From Nitrospirota bacterium (lineage in GTDB: Bacteria > Nitrospinota_A > UBA7883), in assembly GCA_024275315.1 (NCBI GenBank), contig JAJRZK010000058.1, positions 62,001 to 126,000 of the forward strand: DNA of 64,000 nucleotides, in the 5' to 3' direction. The notes beneath the pieces were generated by a model. It was not told the DNA's origin, ran no database searches, and saw only the letters and a program-made list of their open reading frames with translations. Positions 31,145-41,232 of this stretch are shown piece after piece. Position 1 is the first letter of the stretch, and each line of letters begins with the position of its first letter. The position numbers and the translations under genes are program-made.

Positions 31145-32140
31145 ATGACACAACTTCCGATAACCAACGAACGTGGTTTCTTTGAGATCAGGATGGAGTC
31201 CGTAGGCGGATTTGGAGCGAACCTCGCCGGAAAGATACTCGGCGAGGCTGGCATCCTGGGAATGGGTTATAACGGGTCGAACTTTTCCAGCTATGGTTCG
31301 GAAAAGAAGGGTAGCCCGGTGAAATCCTTTGTACGGTTTTGCGCGCCGAACGTCAACGTCCGGGTCAACAGCCCCGTAACCGAGCCGCATATCCTGGTTA
31401 TTTTCGCTGAGAGCATGCTCGACACACCCGGTTTGCTTTCCGGAGCCGGCAAGGATACCACGGTGATAATAAACACTGCCATGACCCCGGACCAGGCGAG
31501 GGACAGGATAAAGCTTCAATGCGGGTCGGTGGTGACCCTGGATGCGATGAAAATAGCTATCGAAGAGAAAACCAGGGTGAACACGGCGTTATTGGGCGCC
31601 ATTTCGGCGACCTCCGGCTTTATCGACCCGGAGGCGATAAAGCTCTATATAAAGAAGAACCTGGGCAAGAAATACGCCTTCCTTATCGAGCCAAACCTGA
31701 AAACGTTCGACCGGGGCATGGTGGAATTTTCCAAAAAGTTTTTTGACGATGACGGGAAATATCCCGCCCAGCCTTTCAGGCGGGAAGGCCAGAAGATAGG
31801 CTACATGAACCAGCCAATCGGCGGGGTGATCGTCAACCCGGGCAACTCGATCCACAAGGATCTGACCGTATCCAGGTCAGGCTGGGCGCCGGTATTGATC
31901 AAAAGTAAATGTACTTCCTGCGGTGAATGCGATATCACGTGTCCCGATTACTGTTTTGAATGGGTCAGGGAAAAGAACAAAAAAGGCAAGGAGGCGCAGG
32001 TGCTTGCCAGGATAGACTACAAACACTGCAAGGGATGTCTGCGGTGTGTGGAGATTTGCAAGTTCGATGCGCTTGTCTCCAGGGTGGAGTCGGATGTCGA
32101 CAAGAAAATCATAGAAGACGGATTTACGGAATTAACTTAA
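31145..32140 (+). CDS. 2-oxoacid:ferredoxin oxidoreductase, fused gamma-delta subunit
   Basis: A 331-residue polypeptide. Residues 1-190 are the gamma (catalytic-accessory) domain, starting with IRMESVGGFGANLAGKIL. Residues 250-331 are a 2[4Fe-4S] ferredoxin (delta) with ligand sets Cys256/259/262/266 and Cys295/298/301/305. In ordinary four-subunit enzymes these are separate proteins. Electrons from oxidative decarboxylation (or for reductive carboxylation) pass through the two clusters. The partner alpha-beta protein is encoded 78 bp downstream. The specific acid (pyruvate, 2-oxoglutarate or another) is not decided by sequence reading. Confidence 0.9.
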   Translation: MTQLPITNERGFFEIRMESVGGFGANLAGKILGEAGILGMGYNGSNFSSYGSEKKGSPVKSFVRFCAPNVNVRVNSPVTEPHILVIFAESMLDTPGLLSGAGKDTTVIINTAMTPDQARDRIKLQCGSVVTLDAMKIAIEEKTRVNTALLGAISATSGFIDPEAIKLYIKKNLGKKYAFLIEPNLKTFDRGMVEFSKKFFDDDGKYPAQPFRREGQKIGYMNQPIGGVIVNPGNSIHKDLTVSRSGWAPVLIKSKCTSCGECDITCPDYCFEWVREKNKKGKEAQVLARIDYKHCKGCLRCVEICKFDALVSRVESDVDKKIIEDGFTELT

Positions 32141-32221
32141 ATCTCAGGCGAACTCGGGCGCATGACCCTGGATTGTTGTGCGCCGTGTTTATAGGTTACG
32201 CCAAATTTGGGAGAATAATTG

Positions 32222-34519
32222 ATGAGTTCCAATACTGAAACGGGCCGGAAGGCCTCTACGGGTACAGCCGCCCAGGTCACTGATTTTCGATCGGGCAACG
32301 AGATGTCCTCGCTGGCGGCCGCCCACGTCAACTTTCACATCATGGGATATTATCCCATCACCCCATCCACGGAGGTTGCGGAATATCTTGACGAGATGGG
32401 CGCCAACGGCGAGCATGAGGTCCACCTTATCCCCGGCGACGGTGAACATGGCGCCGCCGGTATATGTTATGGCGCCACTACCGCGGGGGGGCGCGTTTTC
32501 AACGCCACGTCGGCCAACGGTCTCCTGTTTTCCCTGGAACAGTTGCCGGTTCAGTCCGGCACCCGGTACCCGATGGTGCTCAACCTGGTTTGCAGGTCTG
32601 TCTCCGGTCCGCTGGATATTCGCGGCGACCATTCCGACCTCATATCCACCATGGACATGGGCTGGATCATCCTGTGCGCCAAGGACCCGCAAACAGTCTA
32701 CGACATGGTGATACTGGCCGTGAAAATAGGTGAGCTGGCCGAGGTGCGTCTTCCTGTCATAGTGGCCGACGACGGCTTCTTCACTTCGCATCAGAAACGC
32801 CGGGTGCAGTATTTTGAAGATTTGAAGGTGGTAAAGGATTTTGTTGGTGAAGTAAAACAGATAAACTCCTCTGTTGAGCCGACCAACCCCATCACCATCG
32901 GTCCCTACATGAACGATCCGGATCAGATAAACAATAAAAAGCAGCTTTCCATGGCGATGGCGGCTTCGGAAACACTGATCCCGAAAGTGTTCGAGGAATG
33001 GGAGAAGCTGACCGGACGCAGATACAATCCGCTGGAAACCTACATGATGGAAGACGCCGAGACGGCCATATTCATCATCAACTCCGCGGCGGACACCGTG
33101 ATGGACATCGTAGACGAGCTTCGATCGCAGGGCAAGAAGGTCGGGTGTCTCTACCCGACGGCGCTTCGTCCCTTTCCCAGCGAGCAGGTGCGTAAAGCGT
33201 GCAAAAACGTCAAAGCGCTGCTGGTGGCCGAACGGGCCGACTCGTATGGCGCCCACGGGGGGAGGGTGTGCAACGAAATCAAGGCCGCGCTGAAGGACGA
33301 CCCGGACAACAGGACCATGGTGATCTCGCGCATCTACGGCCTGGGCGGGAAAGATTTCTTTGACGAGGACGCCCGTACCTTGTTCGAGCTGACGTTCGAC
33401 GCGGTCAAAAGAGGCAAGGTGGTAGTGCCATACGACTATTTGGGAGCCGATCCCGGCGATCCGGATTATAAGCCGCCCAAGGGACTCCCCGTCCTTACAG
33501 AGCAACAGCAGTCCCCCGGGATACTGAAGGTTTATGAGGACGAAAAAACCGGAAAAATAGAGGTGAAAGGGGTCAAGCAACGCGACCTGACCGAAATGCC
33601 CTGCAGAATAGCGCCGGGACATGGCGCCTGCCCGGGGTGCGGTATCTTCCCGAGCGTGGGAACGTTCCTGAAAGGTATAGAAGGTTTTGTCGTTATGCTG
33701 TGGCACACCGGATGCGGGATGGTGGTCACCACCGGCTATCCGAACACGTCGTTCGCCATCACCTATATCCATAACCTTTTTCAGAATGGCGCGGCGACTA
33801 TGTCCGGTGTGGTGGAGATGTACAAGGAGCGCCAGAGACGGGGGGAAATTCCTCAGGATCAGGATATCACCTTCGTCATGGTCACCGGTGACGGGGGGCT
33901 GGATATCGGGCTGGGCCCGGCGCTTGGCACGGCGTTTCGTAACCACAACATGATTATTCTCGAATACGATAACCAGGGTTATATGAACACCGGCAACCAG
34001 ATGTCTTTTACCACGCCTCTGGGGCACTCCACATCCACTTCCAATATCGGAACCGTCGGGCGTGGCAAGACGTTCAATCACAAGGATTCCGCGCAGTTGT
34101 TCGCTTCGTGCCATATCCCATACGTGTTTACAGCGTCGGAATCCATGTACAAGGATCTGATCCGCAAAGCCGCGAAGGCCCAGTGGTACGCCAAAAACGA
34201 GGGGCTGGTTTTTGGCCAGCTGTTCTCCGATTGCCCCCTGAACTGGCGCCATCCGGACCATAACGGACAGGAGATCATCCAGGCTGGTATTGATTGCAAC
34301 TTTTTCCCTCTGTATGAAGTGGAGCGGGGTGTGACCACGCTCAACTATGACCCGGAAGCCAAGGGCAAGAAGGTCGCCGTGACCGAATGGCTCAAGTATA
34401 TGGGCAAAACCAAGCACATGCTCAAGCCGGAGTACAAGGATATCGTCGACAGGTTCCAGAAAGAGGTGGACAGAAGGTTTAACCGTATCAAGGCCATGAG
34501 CGAGCATCCGGACCTGTAG
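32222..34519 (+). CDS. 2-oxoacid:ferredoxin oxidoreductase, fused alpha-beta subunit
   Basis: A 765-residue fusion. The N-terminal alpha part begins FRSGNEMSSLAAAHVNFHIMGYYPITPSTE, split here as the PITPST motif (about 45) of PorA. Residues from about 460 are the beta part with CPGCGIFPS (Cys ligands of a proximal cluster, about 470) and the thiamine-diphosphate motif GDGGLDIGLG (about 556). Together with the upstream gene this makes a complete enzyme from two polypeptides that joins or splits acyl-CoA and CO2 using ferredoxin. ATG 32222 follows GGGAGA; a TTG at 32219 is less likely. A palindromic terminator lies 30 bp downstream. Confidence 0.9.
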   Translation: MSSNTETGRKASTGTAAQVTDFRSGNEMSSLAAAHVNFHIMGYYPITPSTEVAEYLDEMGANGEHEVHLIPGDGEHGAAGICYGATTAGGRVFNATSANGLLFSLEQLPVQSGTRYPMVLNLVCRSVSGPLDIRGDHSDLISTMDMGWIILCAKDPQTVYDMVILAVKIGELAEVRLPVIVADDGFFTSHQKRRVQYFEDLKVVKDFVGEVKQINSSVEPTNPITIGPYMNDPDQINNKKQLSMAMAASETLIPKVFEEWEKLTGRRYNPLETYMMEDAETAIFIINSAADTVMDIVDELRSQGKKVGCLYPTALRPFPSEQVRKACKNVKALLVAERADSYGAHGGRVCNEIKAALKDDPDNRTMVISRIYGLGGKDFFDEDARTLFELTFDAVKRGKVVVPYDYLGADPGDPDYKPPKGLPVLTEQQQSPGILKVYEDEKTGKIEVKGVKQRDLTEMPCRIAPGHGACPGCGIFPSVGTFLKGIEGFVVMLWHTGCGMVVTTGYPNTSFAITYIHNLFQNGAATMSGVVEMYKERQRRGEIPQDQDITFVMVTGDGGLDIGLGPALGTAFRNHNMIILEYDNQGYMNTGNQMSFTTPLGHSTSTSNIGTVGRGKTFNHKDSAQLFASCHIPYVFTASESMYKDLIRKAAKAQWYAKNEGLVFGQLFSDCPLNWRHPDHNGQEIIQAGIDCNFFPLYEVERGVTTLNYDPEAKGKKVAVTEWLKYMGKTKHMLKPEYKDIVDRFQKEVDRRFNRIKAMSEHPDL

Positions 34520-34549: not shown

Positions 34550-34578
34550 AAATACCGTTAACAATGTTAATGGTATTT
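34550..34578. terminator. Bidirectional intrinsic terminator
   Basis: Thirteen-base-pair stem (34550-34562 with 34566-34578, one G-U pair, loop AAT) rich in A-T at its base, followed by TTATTCTTC on the plus strand and preceded by T-rich sequence on the minus strand side. It lies exactly between the convergent oxidoreductase and mrr genes, touching the mrr stop codon. Confidence 0.75.
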
Positions 34579-35492
34579 TATTCTTCAATAAAGTAGTCGC
34601 TATCGATCTTCTTTATTTCATACGACTCTTTGAGAGCTACGCCAACATTGTGGTCGATCATAAGGTTGGCCAAACGCTGACCATCAACAAGGATAACTCG
34701 TGTATCGACCATAGACGAATACTTCTTGGCCTCGGCTGTAAAATTGGATGTTGTGATAAAGACACCCTTTTTTGCGCGTTTACCTTGAAGAGCTCCAACG
34801 AACTTTTGAATTTCAGGGCGCCCAACAGAGCCTTCCCATCTCTTAGCCTGAATGTAGATGAGGTCGAGGCCAAGCTTATCTTCACTGATGGTTCCATCAA
34901 TGCCTTCGTCACCGCTTTTGCCGATGGCAATACCCGCCCGTGATCCTCCTGCTTCTCCGTACCCCATTTGGAGAAGGAGGTCAACAACCAATTGTTCAAA
35001 GAACGAAGGGGACATTTGCATGACCGAAGATAAAAGTTCGGAAACCAAAGTAAGACGCAGGTCTTTATAACCTAGCGCCATAAGCTCTTCTGGTGTTTTG
35101 TATTCAATATTCTCTTTTTCTTTTTTTGTATCATCGTTTGTAGCGCTCTTGGCTGTATGGAATTCGAGGAACTCTTCAAATTGTTTTAAGTAACTTACAT
35201 TTAAGACAGGAGGCGGATTTTGAAGGACACTTTTGCCCTTTTCAGTAATCTGAAAAACGGCTCTTGCTGGTTGAGTAAGAAGACCTGCTTTTTTTAGATA
35301 AGTTTTCGCCCAATAGGTCCTGTTAGTAAAGATTGCCTGACGTCCACTGGGTAGCACTTCTTCGCGCTCTTCAAGAGATAAGTTGAATACATCAGCCAAT
35401 GCGTCAACTGCATCCTTGTTAGAATGCGGCTCTCCGTCTCCGGCAAGCTTGAGTAAAGGCAAAAATATCTGTTGGAAGTCAGGTATTGGCAT
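34578..35492 (-). CDS. mrr: Mrr-type restriction endonuclease (type IV)
   Basis: A 304-residue protein, the same length as E. coli Mrr. The N-terminal winged-helix Mrr_N domain occupies about residues 5-95. The C-terminal catalytic domain shows GDEGIDGTI (Asp199) and YIQAKRW (Gln215, Lys217), the modified PD-(D/E)xK core. Mrr cuts foreign or modified DNA. Its codon use and the flanking sequence are visibly more A+T-rich than neighbours, and it stands alone against the direction of both flanks, so recent acquisition is likely. No partner methylase is present. Confidence 0.9.
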   Translation of the reverse strand: MPIPDFQQIFLPLLKLAGDGEPHSNKDAVDALADVFNLSLEEREEVLPSGRQAIFTNRTYWAKTYLKKAGLLTQPARAVFQITEKGKSVLQNPPPVLNVSYLKQFEEFLEFHTAKSATNDDTKKEKENIEYKTPEELMALGYKDLRLTLVSELLSSVMQMSPSFFEQLVVDLLLQMGYGEAGGSRAGIAIGKSGDEGIDGTISEDKLGLDLIYIQAKRWEGSVGRPEIQKFVGALQGKRAKKGVFITTSNFTAEAKKYSSMVDTRVILVDGQRLANLMIDHNVGVALKESYEIKKIDSDYFIEE

Positions 35493-37073: not shown

Positions 37074-38336
37074 ATGGGAAAATATTCTCTCATTTGTTCC
37101 GCGGACGGAGCCCCGTCACAAACGAAGCATCCATTCGATTTTACCGGTTCCTGCCACGACAACGCTCTTTTAAAACCACTGTACGAGACAAGGAAGATCG
37201 AACCTGACCTGTCCAGGCCCGGACTGTGGAAATATCTTGATTGGTTGCCGGTAAAAAGCCAGAACGAATATTCGTACGGACCGGTGACATACAAAAGCGA
37301 AGGGCTCGCCAGGGAACTCGGGCTTAAAGATCTCTGGATCAGTTTCAACGGTTATTATCCTGATTTTGGGGCCTATTACAAAACATGCACATTCAAGGAG
37401 CTTCACGCGGTTGTGGCGATCCAGTACGCCAGGGAAAACGGGGTGGACAAGATGGTGCTGGCGTCCGCCGGGAACACGGCGGTGGCGTTTACATACATCG
37501 CGGAGGTCCTGAAATTTCCCGTGGTGTGCGTAGTGCCGGAGAAATGCATGTGCGGGGTGAATGTGCCGAACATGCTGATCAATTACGCAAAGATAGTGAT
37601 GCTTCAAGGGGATTATTCCGACGCGCTGGATATTTCCAAACGTCTTTGCAAAGCGAAAAACTATGTCTATGAAGGCGGCGCCAGGAACTTCGCCAGACGG
37701 GCCGGCCTCGCCGTGCCCTATCTTGACGCCGTGATCACAATAGGCCGCATCCCCACGCACTATTTCCAGGCCGTAGGAAGCGGCACAGGAGCCGCCGCGG
37801 CCTGGCATGTAAACGAGCTTCTTATCCGGGACGGGTCGTACGGGTCGCATTATTCCAGGATGCACCTTTCCCAGAATACACCAATGACGCCTATGGTAAG
37901 CGCCTGGAGCGCCGGCAGAAACTATATCAATCCGAACACGGATATCCCCAAAATAGATAACATACTCAACGCGGTGGCGGCGCGTGTTTTGTCCACGAAA
38001 TATCCGGCGTATGAGATCAGGGGCGGTGTCCACGACGCGCTGAAAACCACAGGTGGGTTAATGTACGCTATCAAAAACGAGGAGGTGTACGAATCCGGGG
38101 ATATATTCAGACGAACCGAGGGGCGTGATATCCTGCCGGCGTCATGCGTGGCGGTTGCGTCGCTTCGGCGCGCTGTAAAGGAAAAAAAAGTGCGGCCGGA
38201 CGACATAATACTTCTCAATATCACAGGCGGCGGGATTGAACAGCGGCTGAGAGATTTGAGCGTGTTGCAGATCAAGCCCAACGCGTCGATCACCAGGGAT
38301 ATCACCGATGACCAGCTGGAGAAACTGGACGTTTGA
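37074..38336 (+). CDS. Cysteate synthase homologue (threonine-synthase-like PLP enzyme)
   Basis: A 420-residue fold-type II PLP enzyme. Lys108 in KTCTFKEL is the expected Schiff-base lysine, SAGNTA (131-136) the substrate loop and GSGTG (235-239) the phosphate cradle. GPVTYKSEGLA, EGGARNFARRAG, YFQAVGSGTG and NITGGG match, from memory, the cysteate synthase group of Methanosarcinales rather than housekeeping threonine synthase. That enzyme makes L-cysteate from O-phosphoserine and sulfite in coenzyme M synthesis. The call is strengthened by a sulfopyruvate decarboxylase gene overlapping its stop by 4 bp. Threonine synthase remains the main alternative. Confidence 0.82.
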   Translation: MGKYSLICSADGAPSQTKHPFDFTGSCHDNALLKPLYETRKIEPDLSRPGLWKYLDWLPVKSQNEYSYGPVTYKSEGLARELGLKDLWISFNGYYPDFGAYYKTCTFKELHAVVAIQYARENGVDKMVLASAGNTAVAFTYIAEVLKFPVVCVVPEKCMCGVNVPNMLINYAKIVMLQGDYSDALDISKRLCKAKNYVYEGGARNFARRAGLAVPYLDAVITIGRIPTHYFQAVGSGTGAAAAWHVNELLIRDGSYGSHYSRMHLSQNTPMTPMVSAWSAGRNYINPNTDIPKIDNILNAVAARVLSTKYPAYEIRGGVHDALKTTGGLMYAIKNEEVYESGDIFRRTEGRDILPASCVAVASLRRAVKEKKVRPDDIILLNITGGGIEQRLRDLSVLQIKPNASITRDITDDQLEKLDV

Positions 38337-39454
38337 CACCTGAAGACAAAACACTGGGAATTCTGAAAAGCCACAGCGTAGATTTTGTCGCCGCCTTGCC
38401 GTGTGACAGAAACAAAAACCTGTATGAAGCCGCCCTGGCGCAGTTCAAACCGGTGGAACTGAGCCGCGAAGAGGAGGGTGTGGGTATCTGCGCGGGAGCT
38501 CTTATGGCGGGAGCGCGCCCTGTCATGCTGATCCAGAACTCCGGATTCGGGAACATGGTCAACGCCATAGCTTCCCTGGGCAAGCATTACCGTTTCGCCC
38601 TGCCAATGCTGATGAGCTGGAGGGGAAGGGATTCTGAAACCATAGCGGCGCAGGAATGGATGGGGGAGTATGTCCCGAAAATCCTGGCGGCCATGGACAT
38701 CCCATATCATGAGATTTACGACCTGGCGGATATAGATCAGCTCGACGCGACTCTGGGCGGCGTGTTCTATAATGACGAGATTCGAGGATACCTGTTCGAG
38801 CCGTCGGTATGGAATGGGAGCGATTTCGCGCCGGAAAAGCGCCCGGCGCCGGTCCGTACGCGCCTCGGCCAATACGACGAACCAATACCCGAACCCGCCG
38901 TCACCCGCTATGAGTTGCTACAGCGGATATCCGGAGCGCTGGAGGGGAAAGCCGTGGCGTGCAACCTCGGGTTTCCCTGCAAGGAGCTTTTTAGCGCATG
39001 CCACCAGCCGTCCAATTTCTATATGCTAGGCTCGATGGGGATGGTCACACCTGTCGCCCTGGGCATGGCGCTTTGCTCCGGCAAACCGGTTGTCTCCATC
39101 GACGGCGACGGTAGCCTGCTGATGAACCCGTCCACCCTGGCGACCATCGCCAGGACAGGGCCAAAAAACATGGCGGTGCTGTGCGTGGACAACGGAGCGT
39201 ATGGCTCCACCGGCAACCAGACCACCGCCGCCGCGTCGCGCACCGACCTTGCCAAGGTGGCCCACGGGTTCGGGATAGAAAATATCGTTCGCTCCGCAAA
39301 TCCGGCGGTAATCGCCGAGGCGCTGGAGAGATTCAATGGCTCCGGGCCGGTTTTTATCCACGCCATATGCAGAGCCGGAAACGCAGATGTGCCTAATCTT
39401 ACGATTACTCCGGAACAGATACGACACGGCGTTGAAGGGTTCCTGCGAGGGTAG
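38333..39454 (+). CDS. comDE: Sulfopyruvate decarboxylase, fused ComD-ComE
   Basis: A 373-residue thiamine-diphosphate enzyme. Residues 1-165 are ComD-like, with LPCDRNKNL (22-30), the REEEGVGICAGA segment containing the catalytic-cofactor Glu, and MLIQNSGFGN. Residues 190-373 are ComE-like, with the cofactor motif GDGSLLMNP (258-266). It decarboxylates 3-sulfopyruvate (the transamination product of cysteate) to sulfoacetaldehyde. In many methanogens D and E are separate; fused versions occur in Methanosarcina. It starts with TTG in a TTGA overlap with the previous gene and no nearby ATG competes. Phosphonopyruvate decarboxylase is a relative, but no PEP mutase gene is near. Confidence 0.82.
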   Translation: MTPEDKTLGILKSHSVDFVAALPCDRNKNLYEAALAQFKPVELSREEEGVGICAGALMAGARPVMLIQNSGFGNMVNAIASLGKHYRFALPMLMSWRGRDSETIAAQEWMGEYVPKILAAMDIPYHEIYDLADIDQLDATLGGVFYNDEIRGYLFEPSVWNGSDFAPEKRPAPVRTRLGQYDEPIPEPAVTRYELLQRISGALEGKAVACNLGFPCKELFSACHQPSNFYMLGSMGMVTPVALGMALCSGKPVVSIDGDGSLLMNPSTLATIARTGPKNMAVLCVDNGAYGSTGNQTTAAASRTDLAKVAHGFGIENIVRSANPAVIAEALERFNGSGPVFIHAICRAGNADVPNLTITPEQIRHGVEGFLRG

Positions 39455-39515
39455 CATGGGAATAACATTCACCGGCTCGTTTTCGGGCCGGCAAAACAGC
39501 GATAGGTGTTAGTTT

Positions 39516-40274
39516 ATGGCATGGTTCGGAAAAATAGTCGGAGGCACGGTAGGGCTGTTCATGGGCGGTCCGTTGGGGGCGGTCGCCGGAGCGGCGATGG
39601 GAGCCATCTATGACTCGCAGAACCCGGACACTGTAAACCGGGGCCAGTGGCGGGAAGTGGAGATGAATAACGTTGAGCGCGCCCAGCTTCTTTTTTTCGC
39701 CGCCACATTTTCCATGCTTGGAAAGCTCGCCAAGGCCGATGGCCGGGTGACCCCGGAGGAGGTGGAGAACGTATCTCAATTCATGAGAGAAATCAGGCTT
39801 GAAGGCGAACAGCTCCGGTTCGCCAAAGAGATATTCAACCAGTCAAAAAGCATGGATGTTCCCTTCGAAGCCCTGGCCAGGCAGTATTACCAGGTCTCCA
39901 ACCGTGACCATTCGCGGGCGCGGGTGATGATCGACATTATGCTTCGCGTGGCCATGGCGGACGGGGAGTATCACCCCGAGGAGGAGCGGCTGATCCATAC
40001 CGCCGCCAGGATATTCAACATCGACAAGAGTGAATTCGAAAGGTTGAAAGGGCAGTATGTAAAGGATAATTCAAGATACTACGCCATCCTGGATTGCGCC
40101 GAAACCGATTCTGACGAAGTGATCAAACGTAAATACCGCCAGCTGGTTTCCGAATATCATCCCGACAAAATAGCCTCCAAAGGATTGCCCGAAGAGTTTA
40201 TGGAACTTGCCAACAAGAAACTCCAGGAGTTTAACGAGGCCTACTCGCAGATAAAAAAATCCAGGGGGATGTGA
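39516..40274 (+). CDS. DjlA-like protein: TerB domain plus C-terminal J domain
   Basis: A 252-residue protein. A glycine-rich hydrophobic N terminus (about residues 8-30, GGTVGLFMGGPLGAVAGAA) may insert in the membrane. A TerB-like helical, acidic metal-binding domain spans about 60-175, with the repeated KADGRVTPEE and MADGEYHPEE blocks. The last 70 residues are a J domain with the HPD tripeptide near 215, so it should stimulate a DnaK-type chaperone. It lies 61 bp after comDE and 28 bp before the binding-protein gene. Whether it helps either sulfonate enzyme is unknown. Confidence 0.85.
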   Translation: MAWFGKIVGGTVGLFMGGPLGAVAGAAMGAIYDSQNPDTVNRGQWREVEMNNVERAQLLFFAATFSMLGKLAKADGRVTPEEVENVSQFMREIRLEGEQLRFAKEIFNQSKSMDVPFEALARQYYQVSNRDHSRARVMIDIMLRVAMADGEYHPEEERLIHTAARIFNIDKSEFERLKGQYVKDNSRYYAILDCAETDSDEVIKRKYRQLVSEYHPDKIASKGLPEEFMELANKKLQEFNEAYSQIKKSRGM

Positions 40275-40302
40275 TGATCAAACAGGCCGGGAACGTCTCG
40301 TC

Positions 40303-41232
40303 ATGCCAGATATACGCATAGGCCATCTTTCCACCGCGTACCATAGCGCCCTTGTGGCCATAGGCAGGGGATCATTGGAAAAACTGGGGCTCTGCGCCGA
40401 TTGGAGGCTGTATGGCACAGGTCCGCCGATAGTCCGGGGACTGCAAACCGGCGAGCTGGATATCGGATATATCGGTCTTCCGCCCACCGTTATAGGCGTT
40501 GCAAAAGGAGCGAAACTCAAATGTGTCGCCGGTGGGCATGAGGAGGGGACGGTGTTTGTCGCCAGGTCCGGATACCGAACCGTTACACAAGCAGGGTCTT
40601 TCCGCGCCGTACTGCGACAGTTTGGCGTCATCGGGTCACCGGCCAGGGGGTCTATTCACGACGTGATCCTGCGATACTTTCTCGACAGGGAAGGGTTGAG
40701 CGGGGAAGTGGAGGTTAAAAACTATTCGTGGACCGATTTTGTCACGCTGGCCATGGAAAACGGGGAGATCGACGCGGCGGTTGGCACCCCGTCGTTGCAG
40801 GTGTCGCTTTCGCTGGTCTCCGGGCTGAACATAAAGCCCATAGCCTCTCCTGCGGAGCTTTGGCCGCACAATCCCAGCTATGGCATAGTCGCATCGGAAA
40901 AATTTATCAAAAACCACCAGGATCGGCTTATCGAGTTTTTAAAAGTCCACAAGGAATCGATAATGTTCATGAAAAAAAATCCGGATGAAGCGGCCAGAAT
41001 TTCGTCGGAAGTGGTGGGTGTGGTCGGGCCGCGGTTTTTCAGGGAGTGTTATGATGTATCCCCCCGTTATTGCGCCGCATTGACAGAAGAATATATGGCC
41101 TCTACCATGCGATTCGTGGAGACCCTCAAGGCGAGCGGTTACATAGCCAGAAGCGTGGGCAGGGAAGAAATTTTCGACACCTCGTTTATTGCGCAGGTTC
41201 ATCCTGAACCCCAGCATTACGACACATGGTAA
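40303..41232 (+). CDS. SsuA/NMT1-like substrate-binding-fold protein without signal peptide
   Basis: A 309-residue type-II periplasmic-binding fold: IGHLSTAYHSALVAIGRG at the N terminus, LDIGYIGLPPTVIGVAKGAKL in the first lobe, and EIDAAVGTP in the second. Relatives bind sulfonates, taurine, nitrate or pyrimidine precursors. No hydrophobic export signal precedes ATG 40303 and the frame upstream reads into hydrophilic codons, so the protein is probably cytosolic. No permease or ATPase gene is adjacent. Its placement after the cysteate and sulfopyruvate genes suggests a sulfonate ligand or an enzymatic role like that of Thi5 or MqnA, which share the fold. That is inference. Confidence 0.7.
   Translation: MPDIRIGHLSTAYHSALVAIGRGSLEKLGLCADWRLYGTGPPIVRGLQTGELDIGYIGLPPTVIGVAKGAKLKCVAGGHEEGTVFVARSGYRTVTQAGSFRAVLRQFGVIGSPARGSIHDVILRYFLDREGLSGEVEVKNYSWTDFVTLAMENGEIDAAVGTPSLQVSLSLVSGLNIKPIASPAELWPHNPSYGIVASEKFIKNHQDRLIEFLKVHKESIMFMKKNPDEAARISSEVVGVVGPRFFRECYDVSPRYCAALTEEYMASTMRFVETLKASGYIARSVGREEIFDTSFIAQVHPEPQHYDTW

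Follow-up and report, generated by a model that had tools for sequence, protein, structure and literature searches.

We analyzed a 64,000-nucleotide stretch of DNA (the window) deposited as Nitrospirota bacterium (assembly GCA_024275315.1, contig JAJRZK010000058.1, positions 62,001 to 126,000), whose host apparently belongs to class UBA7883 of the Nitrospinota. It carries a cluster led by genes for a cysteate synthase (ComS) and a fused sulfopyruvate decarboxylase (ComDE), which we tentatively read as a module for making coenzyme M (CoM). The features of the cluster are as follows:

37074 to 38336, plus strand: cysteate synthase ComS, a pyridoxal phosphate enzyme of fold type II (TIGR03844, PDB 9k3c, tree)
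38333 to 39454, plus strand: fused sulfopyruvate decarboxylase ComD-ComE, a thiamine diphosphate enzyme (TIGR03845, TIGR03846, tree)
38333 to 38336, plus strand: start/stop overlap of 4 bp, TTGA, indicating translational coupling and kept in relatives
39516 to 40274, plus strand: DjlA-like co-chaperone, TerB plus DnaJ (NF006948, 208 bits, above 162; PF05099; PF00226)
40303 to 41232, plus strand: cytoplasmic SsuA/TauA-like protein resembling sulfonate-binding proteins (SBP-like; TIGR01728, 100 bits, under the SsuA subfamily cut-off of 163.5; fold; conservation)

The original prediction for this region had placed the first two genes correctly; its range extended to 41232 but left the DjlA-like gene and the conserved SBP-like gene undescribed. 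Comparisons were made in a sample of 24 Nitrospinota genomes, seven from the window's family and 17 others. G000 is the window's genome, L015 (also L066) lies in G019, and the other L and G labels denote stretches and genomes of relatives.

ComS scored 427.4 bits against the cysteate synthase equivalog TIGR03844 (cut-off 324.9), and it was the sole protein of the window's whole genome above that cut-off, with the runner-up at 63 bits. Threonine synthase models gave at most 85 bits, all far under their own cut-offs. The closest solved structure was PDB 9k3c, titled 'Cysteate synthase' (300 bits, 41% identity), and threonine synthases reached no more than 59 bits. In an 11-row tree, ComS grouped with 9k3c and was split with 100/100 support from the threonine synthases, among them one encoded in the window's genome. 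Threonine synthase identity, the alternative that the prediction itself had named, was thus rejected by the model scores and the tree. Lys108 (the PALP lysine), GSGTG and EGGARN, on which the prediction had drawn, were all present; K108 and the EGG..N core were invariant across six ComS relatives, and the T of GSGTG was a G in one. Family membership strongly supports a predicted conversion of O-phosphoserine and sulfite to L-cysteate and phosphate.

ComS homologues were also found on two Streptomyces plasmids, both 35-36% identical to the window's ComS. The one from Streptomyces sp. NBC_01340 (L033:7980-9278; TIGR03844, 415 bits) lies ~16 bp after a large nonribosomal peptide synthetase (NRPS)-like gene, and the one from Streptomyces sp. 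NBC_01435 (L101:2827-4209) is followed by an aminotransferase-like gene. They probably serve natural-product formation by supplying cysteate or a comparable residue. Because the NRPS-adjacent protein passes the cut-off, the TIGR03844 family is not exclusively archaeal. The earlier description of an archaeal-type module in a bacterium holds for the occurrence of ComS with fused ComDE in a bacterial host; the term archaeal-type should be used with caution for the family.

The second gene encodes ComD followed by ComE in one open reading frame. The ComD part passed TIGR03845 (158 bits, cut-off 148), and the ComE part fell slightly under the TIGR03846 cut-off (209 versus 221.5 bits). The phosphonopyruvate decarboxylase (Ppd) model TIGR03297 gave 175.7 bits against a cut-off of 312.5, and in a 13-row tree ComDE joined Roseobacter ComDE to the exclusion of Ppd with 100/100 support. 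Ppd identity, the second alternative raised beforehand, was rejected on this score and tree. The start codon of ComDE is a TTG inside the stop of the upstream ComS gene, and the 4-bp overlap was kept in all six intact loci (TTGA in the window, ATGA in five relatives), in agreement with the predicted one-piece decarboxylase translationally coupled to ComS. The GC content of both genes was ordinary for the window. Membership in the ComDE family strongly supports sulfopyruvate as the probable substrate, with sulfoacetaldehyde and CO2 as products.

ComS was found above the cut-off in six of the seven family genomes and in none of the 17 others. The seventh, the groundwater metagenome-assembled genome (MAG) G019, has the same cluster with intact ComDE and SBP-like genes, and its ComS is split over two frames (L015:4310-5465), through misassembly or through damage to the gene; counting this frame-shifted copy, the ComS-ComDE pair occurs in 7/7 family genomes. 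The SBP-like gene was detected at E 1e-30 in 6/7 family genomes and 0/17 others. It lies directly 3' of ComDE in L013 and L015, where the DjlA-like gene is absent, and the latter intervenes in the window, L010 and L011. When contigs were scanned with the alignment of Nitrospinota ComS, all hits were Nitrospinota (one of them a record titled Nitrospirae); the scan patterns were too narrow to pick up archaeal ComS, and the result is silent on exclusivity. No relatives of ComS, ComDE or the SBP-like protein turned up in scans of viral contigs. The ComS-bearing MAGs UBA7883 and NC_groundwater ..63_8 have been treated as class UBA7883, whose members were described as likely sulfur oxidizers with reverse Dsr, Apr and Soe in a text that mentions neither methanopterin nor coenzyme M (PMC10839748). 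Our literature search, with thin coverage of subscription journals, likewise found no paper linking CoM or tetrahydromethanopterin (H4MPT) to this class.

No signal peptide was found in five homologues of the SBP-like protein, and in the window the reading frame stays open for at most ~16 codons ahead of the gene's start. The protein begins at the first strand of the fold, without the leader present in two ordinary binding proteins. Cys74, Cys257 and several His residues were invariant in the five homologues; the two ordinary binding proteins lacked both Cys and the extra His residues. In a Foldseek search of the PDB with an AlphaFold model (predicted local distance difference test score of 78, built from five sequences only), TauA was the best match (E 4e-17) and SsuA the next, with the enzyme Thi5 also among the best. 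ATP-binding cassette (ABC) transporter genes were not found beside the SBP-like gene in the window or in the relatives' loci examined. An SsuA/TauA ABC importer is not indicated, as there is neither a signal peptide nor an ATPase or permease gene alongside. Fold and position make the SBP-like protein the leading candidate for the unassigned step on a C2 sulfonate.

The family genomes also carry genes of H4MPT pathways. Methenyl-H4MPT cyclohydrolase (Mch; 385 bits, cut-off 229) was present in 7/7 family genomes and 0/17 others. In the window's genome, Mch is the first gene of an operon that also encodes proteins of other kinds known from H4MPT pathways, namely a RimK-like ligase, a CitG-like protein, a flavoprotein, a dihydropteroate-synthase-like protein, DUF447 and a beta-ribofuranosylaminobenzene 5'-phosphate (beta-RFAP)-synthase-like kinase. 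The MtrH family was matched in 7/7 family genomes at 8e-14 or better, with trace matches (E >= 2.6e-5) in 3/17 others. Another operon, on G000:C21 (L062:11881-19545), encodes two MtaA/CmuA-type methyltransferases, a corrinoid protein, a RACo/AcsV-like activase, a Gfo/Idh oxidoreductase, a peroxiredoxin and Ftr (428.6 bits, cut-off 297). It is kept in G023:C15 (L064:3270-10402) and G019:C107 (L067), and in G023 it shares a contig with ComS. The methylcobalamin:CoM methyltransferase subfamily cut-off (PRK06252, 244 bits) was passed by three of the five methyltransferases tested, at 247 bits in the window's genome and at 288 and 271 bits in relatives. Furthermore, the HxC...C motif, which in MtaA coordinates the zinc to which the CoM thiol binds, was present in all ten methyltransferases of the family that were examined. 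In L013, a TIGR03123 H4MPT-linked gene (262.5 versus 244.1 bits) lies 149 bp upstream of ComS and is itself preceded by an MfnD-like ATP-grasp gene, with all three on the same strand.

A 589-residue protein without an NCBIfam match also adjoins a UroD-type methyltransferase in G023:C16 (L085:363-2132) and G019 (L067:1027-2793).

The explanation we favor, with slightly less than even confidence, is that the module is a Methanosarcina-type route through sulfoacetaldehyde to CoM, used in MtaA-type methyl transfer into an H4MPT/methanofuran pathway. L-Cysteate formed by ComS from O-phosphoserine and sulfite would be converted to sulfopyruvate by a general aspartate aminotransferase encoded elsewhere, as a general aminotransferase does in M. 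acetivorans (PMC12713407). The fused ComDE would then yield sulfoacetaldehyde, from which CoM may be formed by an enzyme outside COG1900 or by sulfide. The leading candidate for this thiol-forming step would be the co-clustered cytoplasmic TauA/SsuA-fold protein with its two invariant Cys residues. CoM would serve as the thiol of the MtaA-type corrinoid methyltransferases and accept methyl groups, which would enter, with MtrH, the H4MPT/methanofuran pathway ending in Mch and Ftr. The reported reverse Dsr (PMC10839748) would supply sulfite for the first step and sulfide for the last.

At the level of sequence, our comparisons establish the identities of ComS and ComDE, their coupling and conservation, the co-occurrence with H4MPT and MtrH genes, and the absence of the known alternatives described below. 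The H4MPT operon, Ftr, MtrH, the MtaA-type methyltransferases, the HxC...C motif and the L013 neighborhood favor CoM as the product without proving it. The co-occurrence of ComS, H4MPT and MtrH genes within one family may represent a single evolutionary event rather than seven independent ones. A bolder version, which we consider unlikely in full, is a bacterial class that makes CoM from phosphoserine and sulfite with a TauA/SsuA-fold synthase bearing two catalytic Cys and oxidizes methylated compounds via methyl-CoM in a respiratory, H4MPT-linked process, that is, the methylotrophic methanogen pathway run toward CO2 without methyl-CoM reductase (MCR).

Several observations weigh against the favored explanation. 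MtrH scored just under its own subfamily cut-off, and the methyltransferases did not reach that of the MtaA equivalog NF040654 (at most 259 versus 400 bits) or, likewise, that of the MtbA equivalog. The corrinoid operon does not adjoin ComS, lying ~22 kb away in G023 and on a separate contig in the window's genome. In bacteria, MtaA-like and MtrH-like proteins need not depend on CoM, the acceptor in acetogens being a pterin. Moreover, mlp clusters have been proposed to use thiols other than CoM (PMC10418091). MCR alpha (PF02249) was unmatched in all 24 genomes, which leaves out methanogenesis and alkane oxidation by MCR and with them the role for which CoM is best known in archaea. The COG1900/MMP16 CoM synthase (PF01837) was also found in 0/24 genomes, with M. 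acetivorans and M. jannaschii positive as controls, so the thiol-forming step would fall to another enzyme or to sulfide. An M. acetivorans strain without MMP16 is a CoM auxotroph in sulfide-free medium only, and an uncatalyzed reaction of sulfoacetaldehyde with sulfide has been reported (PMC12068725); a sulfide-handling cell might therefore skip MMP16 or use another enzyme.

Other known routes were also lacking. ComA (PF02679), which would mark a type 1 archaeal or Xanthobacter pathway, was absent from all 24 genomes with positive controls, which bears out the expectation that the route differs from that of Xanthobacter. The overall reading of the original prediction held for ComS with fused ComDE and for a non-Xanthobacter route; among the products it had proposed, namely CoM, taurine, isethionate or an unknown sulfonate, CoM is the one we favor. 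No Xsc (TIGR03457) over the cut-off was found in the 24 genomes, the best match being 360 versus 676 bits, and all 14 control genomes gave such sub-threshold matches; a classic degradative use of sulfoacetaldehyde is therefore not indicated. The ComA route, MCR use and Xsc-type degradation were rejected, as their family models were unmatched or under cut-off. Fae (PF08714) was likewise found in 0/24 genomes, which ruled out classical methylotrophy with Fae-type H4MPT formaldehyde oxidation. Since Fae and MCR were both absent throughout the sample, the input is likely to be methyl groups rather than formaldehyde.

A doubtful but serious alternative is that the module yields a free C2 sulfonate that serves as an osmolyte or is exported, either taurine, by transamination of sulfoacetaldehyde, or isethionate, by its reduction, and that the TauA-like protein binds or senses this sulfonate. 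The missing COG1900/MMP16 synthase and the taurine/sulfonate-binding fold of a cluster protein, with TauA as its top PDB match, are consistent with this, and general aminotransferases or reductases of the short-chain dehydrogenase/reductase (SDR) or alcohol dehydrogenase type would be enough. However, it leaves unexplained why the module strictly co-occurs with H4MPT and MtrH genes and why it adjoins a TIGR03123 gene in L013, and the cluster has no dedicated taurine aminotransferase or reductase, families that were not searched genome-wide.

It is rather improbable that CoM is made but acts as a general low-molecular-weight thiol, a redox buffer or a persulfide carrier for reverse-Dsr sulfur oxidation, instead of in methyl transfer. 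CoM guards methanogens against oxidative stress and has been likened to glutathione (PMC12713407), and the hosts are reported sulfur oxidizers (PMC10839748). On the other hand, Nitrospinota outside the family lack ComS although UBA9942 was also reported with reverse-Dsr genes (PMC10839748), and the H4MPT genes track ComS exactly in our sample. Even less probable is that the nucleophile of ComS is not sulfite, or the 2-oxoacid of ComDE not sulfopyruvate, with a different beta-substituted amino acid or aldehyde as the product. Equivalog cut-offs do not probe chemistry, the Streptomyces NRPS-linked protein passes TIGR03844, and ComE is slightly below its cut-off; yet translational coupling and joint conservation link two enzymes of a single pathway, and a protein with a sulfonate-binding fold comes next in the cluster. 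Phosphonate biosynthesis with ComDE as a Ppd is barely credible, as the 176-bit match within a common superfamily falls short of the 312.5 cut-off, the tree separates the two at 100/100, and the cluster has no phosphoenolpyruvate (PEP) mutase.

Just upstream of the cluster region, the window encodes an Mrr-type restriction endonuclease on the minus strand (34578-35492; PF04471, PF14338). At 31145-34519, two genes encode a 2-oxoacid:ferredoxin oxidoreductase with fused PorC-PorD and fused PorA-PorB, which may belong to the reductive tricarboxylic acid cycle reported for the phylum; these genes were not beside the ComS-ComDE module in the relatives' loci examined.

The CoM described in bacteria to date comes from the PEP route of the Xanthobacter type, which serves alkene metabolism. 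In the present case, the Methanosarcinales phosphoserine route is combined with a methanogen-like C1 set and MtaA/MtrH homologues in reportedly sulfur-oxidizing Nitrospinota. The parts are of known kinds; the combination, the host and the missing last step are new. The family offers a concrete place to seek another CoM synthase, for a step whose assignment is recent even in methanogens, and to seek CoM as a methyl carrier outside archaea.

The closest known system is the type 2 CoM pathway of Methanosarcinales, with MA3297 as cysteate synthase, MA3298 as ComDE and MA3299 as a methanogenesis marker protein (PMC12713407, PMC12068725). The first two genes and their order are the same, ComD and ComE form one protein, and the proposed route from phosphoserine and sulfite to sulfoacetaldehyde is shared. 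In contrast, the present host is bacterial, a TauA/SsuA-fold protein follows, and neither COG1900/MMP16 nor MCR occurs. The Xanthobacter pathway would share a bacterial source of CoM, if CoM is indeed the product, but it starts from PEP via ComA (PMC12068725). The ComDE of Roseobacter sulfonate degradation is homologous, and the tree places it as the sister group; Roseobacter clusters encode ComD and ComE separately, beside HisD-like, SDR and hydroxyacid oxidase genes, whereas here they are fused and partnered with ComS, with no Xsc over cut-off. The SBP-like protein has its fold in common with the SsuA/TauA binding proteins and Thi5 (4-amino-5-hydroxymethyl-2-methylpyrimidine phosphate synthase), and differs from the former in lacking a signal peptide and adjoining ABC genes and in having invariant Cys and extra His residues. 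As in MtaA/MtbA systems, UroD-fold methyltransferases with HxC...C, a cognate corrinoid protein and a RACo-type activase are encoded in one operon, here together with Ftr, although the family enzymes score under both equivalog cut-offs.

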